Below are positions 29,262 through 33,409 of a DNA stretch of 33,566 nt, one piece after another. Below the pieces are notes generated by a model. The model searched no databases, had not been told where the DNA came from, and saw nothing but the letters and a program-made list of their open reading frames with translations. A program made the translations under genes and the position numbers. The DNA is taken from NCBI GenBank assembly GCA_029005175.1, contig JAQXFQ010000196.1, forward strand, positions 1 through 33,566, written 5' to 3'. How positions within the stretch are numbered: the first letter of the stretch is position 1; the number at the start of each line of letters is the position of its first letter. The DNA is from Bacillota bacterium (GTDB lineage: Bacteria > Bacillota > Clostridia > Oscillospirales > Acutalibacteraceae).

Positions 29262-29573
29262 TTAAAGCTTGATTTCGATTTCAACGCCCGCAGGGAGCTC
29301 TAATCCTTTAAGAGCCTCAACAACTTTGTTGGAAGGTCTCAGGATGTCAATAAGACGCTTGTGGGTTCTGTACTCGAACTGCTCACGGCTGTCCTTATAC
29401 TTGTGAACCGCACGCAGAATCGTGACGATCTGCTTCTCTGTGGGAAGCGGCACCGGTCCGGAAACCTGTGCACCCTCGCGCTTTGCGGCGTCAACAATCT
29501 TCTGTGCCGCCTGATCGGCGAGAGAATGATCGTAGCTCTTGATTCTGATTCTGATTTTTTCCTTGACTGCCAT
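29262..29573 (-). CDS. rpsJ: 30S ribosomal protein S10
   Basis: S10 is a 30S head protein and also NusE in antitermination. I read 103 residues from ATG 29573 ([20 protein letters not shown]), 8 nt after AGGAGG. The ORF track's longer form adds 34 residues not found in the family. The conserved [20 protein letters not shown] and C-terminal [11 protein letters not shown] are present. It is the first gene of the cluster. Confidence 0.98.
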
Positions 29574-30056
29574 AAAAAATCGCCTCCTGTTAAAATTTGC
29601 GGCGGGCCGCTGCTCATGATTTTTCGCCGAAATGCCCGGGAGTTTTTCAACAAGCCGGTGGATAATTTTCCACATTTTGTCAACAGTGAAGTCTTGCTCC
29701 TCTGTACACTCCCTCCGGGTGTTTCGCGCTCGGGCATTAAAAAACCGGAAGCCGTTGAACTTTTAGGGTTAATCGGTCTTCCGGGTCAGTGAAAACTCAT
29801 AGCAAGCGTTTACGCACAGTTCAAACATCAGACACCGAGCGCATTGGGACGCCCTTGTCCTACCATCCGCATGCATCGCAGACAGAGCCGCGAGCAACAT
29901 ACAGGATTATGTAACTGTGCACACTTTTTCGCCCGGTTTAAAATCGGACATACTCCATGGAAAAACCGTTCGTAACGAACGCAACCTCCCACTTCATCGC
30001 ATATCTCATGTGCAGTCGCTGCAATTTGTATGCACACTGCCTTTCGCAGCGCGCCT
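29574..30056 (-). promoter_or_regulatory. Structured rpsJ leader of about 480 nt
   Basis: This gene-free stretch runs from the promoter to rpsJ. In transcript order it has hairpin 1 GCGCGCTGC-GAAAG-GCAGTGTGC right at the 5' end (30032-30054), hairpin 2 TGCAG-CGA-CTGCA (30011-30023), hairpin 3 CGTTCG-TTA-CGAACG (29967-29981), a less clear central part, an intrinsic terminator (29739-29784), and then AATGCCCG pairing with CGGGCATT (29731-29738 with 29631-29638) around smaller hairpins. The rpsJ ribosome site follows. I see no T-box, tmRNA, SRP or RNase P hallmark. The layout suggests attenuation control of the cluster (inference). Confidence 0.65.
29739..29784 (-). terminator. Intrinsic terminator inside the rpsJ leader
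   Basis: On the minus strand CCGGAAG (29778-29784) pairs with CTTCCGG (29745-29751), with inner CCG/CGG and AAC/GTT pairs, followed directly by TTTTTT (29739-29744). It is about 165 nt before rpsJ and about 270 nt after the putative start site. It is either an attenuator for the operon or the end of a short independent RNA of about 315 nt. Confidence 0.75.
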
Positions 30057-30060
30057 AATT

Positions 30061-30089
30061 ATTATATCAGAACAAGTCCCATTTGGCAA
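30061..30089 (-). promoter_or_regulatory. Main promoter of the ribosomal cluster
   Basis: On the minus strand TTGCCA (30084-30089) and TATAAT (30061-30066) are separated by exactly 17 nt, and the spacer ends in TGA, so the -10 is also extended. This is the strongest promoter in the window by consensus. Transcription should start near 30055, at the first leader hairpin. Confidence 0.85.
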
Positions 30090-30165: not shown

Positions 30166-30591
30166 TCAGCAGTCATAGTCATCGTAATCCATCACGCCCA
30201 TTACCTTTATATAATTGTATCTTCGGGTGCGCCCGCTGACGGTCAGCCAGTCAAAGAGCATCAGTAATCCGCAGCCGCCCAGCGTGCACAGCTTTAGCAA
30301 GCCTATGCCCACATCGCCCAGCAGCATGCGGTCAATGCCGGTCCAGCCGAGTATCAGCGAAATGAACTGCATGCTGTAGACCCTGCGGCAGGTCATATTC
30401 TGCATTGCGGTGAGCTTGCGCAGCGAGCAGTGAAGCATTTTGTCGCGCAGCATAGGGATCTTATCATCGGGCAGATCCGCCTGATTTAGCACGAGAAAGC
30501 GGTCGGTGAGCGTTATCTTCTGCTTGCGGATATTCTCCCTTTCCTCTCTCTCAGCATCGCTGTAATATCTTTCATTTTCATAATCTGCCAT
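30166..30591 (-). CDS. TM2-domain membrane protein
   Basis: This 141-residue protein has a charged N-terminal region (about 1-68), then a TM2 domain: two membrane helices joined by a short loop with GWTGIDRMLLGDVGIGLLK, matching the G-x-H/D-R-F/M-Y/L-L-G pattern of the family. It ends in an acidic MDYDDYDC tail. TM2 proteins are widespread and mostly of unknown function. It lies 33 bp downstream of the DUF2752 gene, forming an operon with it, and 76 bp before the ribosomal promoter on the same strand. No terminator is obvious between the two. Confidence 0.85.
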   Translation of the reverse strand: MADYENERYYSDAEREERENIRKQKITLTDRFLVLNQADLPDDKIPMLRDKMLHCSLRKLTAMQNMTCRRVYSMQFISLILGWTGIDRMLLGDVGIGLLKLCTLGGCGLLMLFDWLTVSGRTRRYNYIKVMGVMDYDDYDC

Positions 30592-31195: not shown

Positions 31196-33409
31196 TTACT
31201 TTGCGGAGCGCGCGAATTTCTTCCTGTAAACCACCGCGCCGATTGCCGCCAGCGAGAGCAGCGCAAGGCATGACGCAACTATCGTGAGCGCGATAGATTC
31301 GCCTGTACCCGGACCATTTTCGGTGTTGGTGGTACCGCCGGGAGTATCTGCGGGCGGTGTGGGGTCGGTAGGTTCATCCGTATCAGGCTCGGCAGTAGGA
31401 TTATCATTTGCCACTACTTCAACTACTGTAGTTTGGAGAGTTAAATAAGGTAAAACATCATTAGTCATAGTGCAATAGAGTTTTTTTCCTACAAATTCTT
31501 CACCAAATGTAAACACACCTTTTTCAGATTTAGTCGGTGTTACTTCAACCAATGACGCTGTAGATATTTCGCCTTGAGCTTCATCATACTCATACCAAGT
31601 ATAAACTGTATTAATTCCATCAACCTTAAATTCTGACGAAATCTGAGACACGGTTTCTCCAGCATATATAGTCTTAGGAATTGAAATGATTGCTTGAGGA
31701 GTATATGCAATAGTTGCACCGTTATCACATATTTGCAAATCGTTGGATATTTCACCATCAATCCAATTCGATGGATTGGATAAGTTTGCTGTTCCATCTA
31801 GTAAACCTTCTAAATATTCATTTAATTTAACTGTTGAAAATTTCAACGAATTGTCTCCACAATGCAATAAAACCATATTATGATGACCTGAAACATCTAA
31901 CTTTGATATATTGTTATTATTACAAATAAGATACCATAAATCTTTGTTTGATGAAATCTCAAGTTCAGACAGGTTATTATTTCCACAATCGAATATATAG
32001 AGTAATGGGTTTTTAGATACATCTAACTCTGATAATTGATTGTAATAACAATATAACTCACTAAGTTTAATATTATTACTAACATCAAGCTCAGTTAGTT
32101 GATTACCACTACATCCTAAAATTTCTAATTCAGTATTTTTAGAAACATCCAATGCAGATAAATTATTATATCCACAAGCTAAACTATTCAACATATTAAG
32201 ATGTGATACTTCTAATTGTGATAAATTATTATTACTACAGCCCAAGAAAGCTAATTCAATATTGTTAGAAATGTCCAATTCTGGCAAATTATTTAAGCCG
32301 CAATCCAACCATTTTAGTTTAACATTTCGAGAAATATCTAACACTGATAAATTATTGTCTCCACAATCCAAATAAACTAACTCAAGGTTGTTAGAAATAT
32401 CTAATTCTGATAAGTTATTATACGCACAGTCTAAATACGTTAAATTAGTATTTTTAGAAACATCTAATTCTGATAAATTGTTCCACCAACATTCCAAACG
32501 CGTTAAATACTTACAATTAGATATGTCTAAAGATGTCAAATTATTTGCATAACAAGCAATTTCCGTTAAAGACTCGCAATTAGATATATCTAAAGATGAT
32601 AAAGCATTTGTAGAACAAGTAATTTCTGTTATTGGAGCTTTACTGTAAATCTTTATAGTTCGATCTTTAGCATACTTAGTAATTTGTTCAGATGTATCTA
32701 TTTCTACTGGTATACTATCTCCTAAATCAACATAGACCTTACCATCTATATCATTTAACTTAAAGCTTATAGAACCATTACTACTTTCTTCACTTTTTGT
32801 TAGTGTAATCTGTAATGGTCCAAATATTTCTTCATCCCAATACGGAACGGGTATGCCAGTCATAATCATTACTCTAACTGCCAATATTCTTGGATAATTA
32901 TTAACATGGCCATTGACGAAAAACATACCACTATGTTTTTTGGCATCGACAGGTGAGCCATCAGGTTCCGTCCATGTAATAGGAACTTCTCCTATGGTAC
33001 CATCTGTAAATGTAGCGGTTATAAACTCAGGCAATTCAACGTCATAACCTGGATATACATAAAACGGACCAGGGAAGTCAACTGACTGAATATCTTTTGA
33101 CTGAGTATCTTTGCCATCTTTCTTCTCCTCGGTTTCAGAATCAAGATTATCTCCAATAGAATCTTTAATATCATCAAGAATATCATCAAGTAAACCTTTA
33201 TCTTTAATTTTATCAAGTAAATCTTTATCAGGTAAATCTTTACCTTCAAAATCAGTAAAAACATCATCAGTTATACTGACATCAGAGTTACTAACCACCG
33301 CCTCCGCCGCGCTTGTACCCATGAAAGTCGCCGTTGCCGCGAGCAGGGCAATTGTCAACAGCGACAAAAACGCTGCGCGAAGCTTGGTTTTGTTATACTT
33401 CTTGCGCAT
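31196..33409 (-). CDS. Secreted leucine-rich-repeat surface protein
   Basis: This 737-residue protein has a signal peptide (about 1-37, core LLTIALLAATATFMG), an Asp/Lys-rich region (about 48-110), a bacterial Ig-like group 4 domain (about 115-190, ATFTDGTIGEVPITWTEPDG), then about 13 leucine-rich repeats of 21 residues (about 258-530) with pattern LxxLxCxxNxLSxLDxSxN. This is the short nested class, with Cys in most units. A second Ig-like domain follows (about 545-680), then a Pro/Thr/Asp linker, GPGTGE, one membrane helix and RKKFARSAK. GPGTG fits a relaxed xPxTG sortase signal; plain membrane anchoring is the alternative. The LRR core is much more AT-rich than its ends. Adhesion or ligand binding is inferred. 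The start is ATG. Confidence 0.88.
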   Translation of the reverse strand: MRKKYNKTKLRAAFLSLLTIALLAATATFMGTSAAEAVVSNSDVSITDDVFTDFEGKDLPDKDLLDKIKDKGLLDDILDDIKDSIGDNLDSETEEKKDGKDTQSKDIQSVDFPGPFYVYPGYDVELPEFITATFTDGTIGEVPITWTEPDGSPVDAKKHSGMFFVNGHVNNYPRILAVRVMIMTGIPVPYWDEEIFGPLQITLTKSEESSNGSISFKLNDIDGKVYVDLGDSIPVEIDTSEQITKYAKDRTIKIYSKAPITEITCSTNALSSLDISNCESLTEIACYANNLTSLDISNCKYLTRLECWWNNLSELDVSKNTNLTYLDCAYNNLSELDISNNLELVYLDCGDNNLSVLDISRNVKLKWLDCGLNNLPELDISNNIELAFLGCSNNNLSQLEVSHLNMLNSLACGYNNLSALDVSKNTELEILGCSGNQLTELDVSNNIKLSELYCYYNQLSELDVSKNPLLYIFDCGNNNLSELEISSNKDLWYLICNNNNISKLDVSGHHNMVLLHCGDNSLKFSTVKLNEYLEGLLDGTANLSNPSNWIDGEISNDLQICDNGATIAYTPQAIISIPKTIYAGETVSQISSEFKVDGINTVYTWYEYDEAQGEISTASLVEVTPTKSEKGVFTFGEEFVGKKLYCTMTNDVLPYLTLQTTVVEVVANDNPTAEPDTDEPTDPTPPADTPGGTTNTENGPGTGESIALTIVASCLALLSLAAIGAVVYRKKFARSAK

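Follow-up and report, generated by a model that had tools for sequence, protein, structure and literature searches.

The leader of rpsJ in the window (the whole stretch of 33,566 nucleotides that was analysed) is, judged by sequence comparison, a member of a known family of ribosomal protein leaders and a putative transcription attenuator, ordinary but well conserved, to which is added a conserved extension, consisting of the helix P3, a post-terminator element and, at the level of the class, a long-range helix P4, that lies outside the Rfam model. It probably serves to switch off a ribosome operon of roughly 30 genes, and we put the probability that it acts as a feedback attenuator of the S10-spc-alpha operon at roughly 70%. 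The thirty or so genes that it precedes encode ribosomal proteins, SecY and RNA polymerase alpha. An earlier note on this DNA had proposed an attenuator-like leader for the whole ribosomal protein cluster, and in substance this proposal is supported: the S10-spc-alpha cluster is preceded by a ribosomal protein leader whose terminator is conserved and presumably regulated.

A described aptamer upstream of rpsJ

The leader and the genes that follow it are on the minus strand. The first gene of the cluster, rpsJ (30S ribosomal protein S10; 29262–29573; NCBIfam TIGR01049, E 5.3e-40), starts with an ATG at 29573–29571, and a Shine-Dalgarno sequence, AGGAGG, can be read at 29583–29588. The earlier note held that a regulated terminator here would set the output of 32 genes; HMM searches identified the S10-spc-alpha cluster at both of its ends (S10, L3, L4, L23, L2 ... 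SecY ... S4, RpoA, L17, all on the minus strand), which is the part of this claim that was checked. A near-consensus promoter had also been described, and the sigma-70-type promoter at 30061–30089 indeed matches the consensus at 11 of 12 bases, with a -35 box TTGCCA (30089–30084), a 17-nt spacer and an extended -10 box carrying TG (TGn-TATAAT, 30066–30061); the -10 box is kept across the genus alignment. Transcription is predicted to start near 30054, giving a leader of about 480 nt whose fold is more stable than that of shuffled sequence (z -2.9). An identical leader segment is present in relatives classed as uncultured Clostridia or as Ruminococcus, some of which come from goat stomach samples. 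Two further minus-strand ORFs were observed, one of them, 5' of the leader (30166–30591), encoding 141 aa with a hydrophobic GWTGIDRMLLGD segment that reads as TM2-type-like and has no NCBIfam match. The other (31196–33409) encodes a predicted surface protein of 737 aa that, as read from the ORF, has leucine-rich repeats of the LTELDVSNN type and a hydrophobic anchor at its C terminus.

An S10-Clostridia ribosomal protein leader aptamer, Rfam RF03136, was found by cmscan at 29926–30005 with a score of 50.7 bits against a gathering threshold of 35.1. The match is full length (model positions 1–81 of 81), is the sole Rfam match across the whole window, and sits in the 5' leader of rpsJ on the same strand, as it does in relatives; in the window about 350 nt separate the end of the aptamer from rpsJ. 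The comparison with Rfam ribosomal protein leaders that had been suggested earlier therefore returns a family above its gathering threshold, and the idea of an undescribed ribosomal protein leader RNA of Clostridia was wrong because the aptamer matches RF03136: the leader is a member of a described family, which it resembles in aptamer sequence and structure, in its place 5' of rpsJ and in lineage. Within the aptamer, whose second hairpin is P2 (GUCCG 29949–29945 / CGGGC 29935–29931), two pairs are changed on both sides within the genus, and a small hairpin just 5' of the aptamer, GCAG-CGA-CUGC (30012–30022), is invariant in 11 genus sequences.

The aptamer was detected in 14 of 18 genomes of the genus, 102 of 120 of the family and 125 of 147 of the order and, more widely, in 108 of 196 genomes of the class and 123 of 300 genomes sampled from the phylum. 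With a single exception, the first 57 loci have rpsJ close to the aptamer and downstream of it. The model also gives scores above its cut-off in Bacillus subtilis and Lactococcus lactis, whose genomes served as controls. Eckert and Weinberg (2020; PMC7247131) treated RF03136 as a Firmicutes S10 r-leader, with Clostridia examples added without discussion, and our literature search found no experimental study of the S10-Clostridia leader. According to the family annotation, itself a prediction, the aptamer would bind a ribosomal protein of the operon and mediate repression. In 23 loci outside the class (within L168–L193), the aptamer ends a few bases from the Shine-Dalgarno sequence of rpsJ (..GUCCG..CGGGCGAAAAGGAGG) and there is no terminator. 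These loci are a translational version of the same leader, and the position of P2 in them, a few bases from the Shine-Dalgarno sequence, points to P2 as the regulatory part. The family also shows one aptamer put to two uses, beside the Shine-Dalgarno sequence in many Bacillota and, in this class, ahead of a terminator.

A conserved terminator and the P3 helix

The RF03136 model has 81 positions and ends at the aptamer, so that P3, the terminator, the post-terminator element and the long-range helix of the class all fall outside it. The known model covers the aptamer alone, and the conserved terminator supplies a mechanism for the leader. An intrinsic terminator with a T6 run had been reported from the sequence, and it is present at 29784–29739 (CCGGAAG...CUUCCGG, stem 29784–29745, U6 29744–29739). 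With arms picked independently of any hairpin finder, the pairing of the segment before the U-run with its own upstream segment was compared with that of partners swapped between loci. In 106 loci of the order, native arms paired at -13.98 kcal on average and swapped partners at -10.14 kcal (sd 0.22; 0 of 5000 permutations), and in 44 loci of the wider class outside the order the values were -14.43 and -9.81 kcal (0 of 5000). The U-run is kept at a fixed place in 96 of the 106 order loci, and most of the order has a CCGG/CCGG outer stem enclosing a variable inner one. Thus the G+C-rich hairpin and U-run that mark an intrinsic terminator are both found here and are conserved in relatives far beyond chance. 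Five leaders of one family (f28: L165, L166, L167, L194 and L195) keep the element and the long-range helix and have no U-run terminator there.

Between the aptamer and the terminator lies a domain closed by P3, an 8-bp helix whose 5' strand, GCACAGUU, is at 29913–29920 and whose 3' strand, AACUGUGC, is at 29814–29821, just 5' of the terminator. Within the genus, four of the eight pairs have changes on both sides, 95.5% of cells are paired, and the covariation score over the whole tested structure was reached by 0 of 500 shuffles. Across the order, the 24 nt that follow the aptamer show specific pairing (z -5.3) with the stretch that precedes the terminator. The earlier proposal to look for covariation in relatives is answered by this helix as well as by the terminator arms. 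The "stack of hairpins" that had been noted before rpsJ is thus in part a domain that P3 closes.

A post-terminator element and the long-range helix P4

About 19 nt past the terminator stem is a conserved element with the consensus GAAAC[AG]CNCGG-N4-GUGU, represented in the window by GAAACACCCGG-(AGGGA)-GUGU (29706–29725), with N5 here in place of the usual N4. A close match to GAAAC[AG]CNCGG is found 3' of the terminator in all 115 loci of the order, with N4-GUGU next in most of them, and the terminator stem ends 19 +/- 1 nt before the element in 97 of the 115; both the GUGU and the fixed U-run spacing lay outside the search seed. The exact pattern gave 60 hits in 57 of 197 genomes, compared with 4 for a reversed control. 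Almost every rpsJ leader of the class carries the element, which in many other families of the class takes the form GANAC[AG]CNCGG-N4-GUGUAC, mostly after a U-run terminator. It is missing in the 23 non-class loci whose aptamer ends at the Shine-Dalgarno sequence; at one further locus outside the class (L179), a terminator-like hairpin and the element are both present. A covariance model of the element plus U-run, R1, matches 29701–29749 (E 2.6e-9, the window sequence being in its training set) and found few distant members, though the motif is plain in class loci, because R1 is too tied to its own order.

Several roles for the element were considered, and were either rejected or not supported. 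A leader peptide beginning at the AUG on its 5' side is contradicted by the variable base, which would be the middle position of a codon, by the stop that directly follows the AUG in some loci and by the U-run, which occupies the expected position of the ribosome site. Nearly all of the 60 exact hits are on contigs with an rpsJ leader, which is at odds with a multi-copy regulon signal; one second copy that was inspected lies in an unrelated region. A covarying hairpin is not supported, as the changes in the element are confined to A-U to G-U and RNAalifold gives no structure for it. Lacking structural covariation, it reads as a sequence-conserved motif, possibly bound by a protein. A search for mimicry of E. 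coli 16S and 23S rRNA gave as its best match to the element 23S nt 940–950 (L258), GAGACACACGG, which was not significant (P=0.10) and may be kept as a possible lead to the ligand. The best aptamer fragment gave P=0.03 in E. coli 16S, a value that loses its significance over the 12 comparisons made; a search of the assembly for the 23S rRNA of this genome found none.

In class loci outside the order, CGACAAGUCACUGUACA and its variants after the aptamer pair with UGUACAG...CUUGUCG and its variants after the element, forming the long-range helix P4 (native -16.46 kcal, swapped -12.16 kcal, 0 of 5000). P4 is clear in some families of the window's own order (L003, L008, L019 and L021), but in that order as a whole it does no better than a control region, and in the window itself it is not supported. 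As far as searched, P3, the element and the class-wide P4 are undescribed in searchable catalogues. The novelty claimed for this leader RNA therefore fails for the aptamer, which was already known, while these three features, absent from the catalogues searched, had been missed. The element and the long-range helix offer specific conserved targets.

The earlier note had singled out a second fold before rpsJ, AATGCCCG/CGGGCATT, as one that it did not recognize. The 8 bp are present (29738–29731 / 29638–29631), but as a functional feature this fold was rejected, since shuffled sequence does as well (P=0.084). Its 3' half is within an insertion that just one other sequence among the 11 of the genus shares, and then only in part. 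A GCCCG partner is absent from three members of the genus, and in some relatives the partner is another one, in which one A-U pair has become G-C. In other genera a significant partner (P<=0.05) was found in only 2 of 115 loci, which is no excess. An insertion at 29697–29640, between the post-terminator element and the Shine-Dalgarno sequence, carries a palindrome, GTGGATAATTTTCCAC, and a TTGACA box, and among 11 genus sequences it is partly shared with L128 only.

The proposed switch and its alternatives

The aptamer, P3, the terminator and the element are conserved in the alignments, as is their place before rpsJ. A possible mechanism for the feedback attenuator is that an operon-encoded ribosomal protein, when in excess over rRNA, would bind the aptamer (30005–29926) and hold P2 (GUCCG/CGGGC), so that the terminator at 29784–29739 would form and transcription would stop before rpsJ. 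In the absence of the protein, the 3' strand of P2 (CCGGG, 29936–29932) would be free to pair with CCCGG at 29785–29781, and read-through would follow. The switch would be kinetic, with the antiterminator competing with P2 until the terminator is complete. The Rfam family annotation suggests a ribosomal protein as the ligand; that its binding favours termination, and that the antiterminator forms by CCGGG/CCCGG pairing, we infer.

The candidate partner CCCGG (29781–29785) is made up of the 5' arm of the terminator and, just before it, an unpaired C that is conserved, faces a U and completes the match to the aptamer CCGGG; C is found at this position in 44 of 51 CCGG/CCGG stems, against a background frequency of C of 0.22. 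In an energy model, the antiterminator wins over P2 as long as part of the terminator is still missing (-97.2 vs -92.6 kcal at 29781; -100.4 vs -96.7 kcal at 29750) and gives way when the terminator has been completed (-103.4 vs -108.7 kcal), which fits a kinetic switch in which protein-held P2 favours termination. A swapped-partner test within the order found no native-specific pairing between the P2 3' arm and the terminator region; these segments are near invariant, so that covariation cannot test the antiterminator, and as CCGG is palindromic, complementarity is easy to find.

A more elaborate reading, which we consider possible but doubtful, is that the class S10 leader is a larger undescribed RNA with dual control. 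The aptamer would set termination, and in read-through transcripts the element would fold back by the aptamer, directly or via P4, completing a second half of the protein site and limiting rpsJ translation, so that two successive checkpoints, transcription and then translation, would answer to the same protein signal. The element is almost invariant and yet lies 3' of the terminator, where as RNA it cannot affect that termination event, and its 3' flank pairs with that of the aptamer in the class. Control of the E. coli S10 leader likewise acts on both transcription and translation (PMC10931766). However, the result for P4 in the order and the lack of the element in most non-class relatives both argue against dual control, and sequestration of the Shine-Dalgarno sequence is putative.

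The feedback attenuator could also be simplified to a constitutive terminator passing a fixed, unregulated fraction of transcripts, and this would agree with an antiterminator that has no covariation proof and with the terminator state being the most stable for the full leader in the energy model; the conserved outer CCGG stem, the unpaired C and the upstream aptamer make it unlikely. Least probable is a leader acting on translation only, with the hairpin and U-run a weak or incidental terminator, for while the same aptamer abuts the Shine-Dalgarno sequence in the 23 non-class relatives, here it ends far from rpsJ, and selection has preserved both the arms and the U-run of the terminator in the order and class.

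In E. coli, the S10 leader is controlled by L4 with NusA. That leader likewise has a terminator before rpsJ, and ribosomal protein feedback is plausibly common to both; by analogy only, an early operon product would be a reasonable first guess for the ligand of the leader described here. The two differ in that no leader family other than RF03136 matches the window, whether at the gathering threshold or with E values of up to 5, and one proteomic study of C. difficile found no evidence for control by L4 as in E. coli (PMC3933415). The rimP-leader (Naville and Gautheret 2010; PMC2965389) also has a conserved terminator with a conserved stem base before a translation/transcription operon. Its stem motif is GGGc...gCCC and no larger aptamer was found there, whereas the leader described here has a CCGG...CCGG or GCCC...GGG stem with an aptamer upstream.
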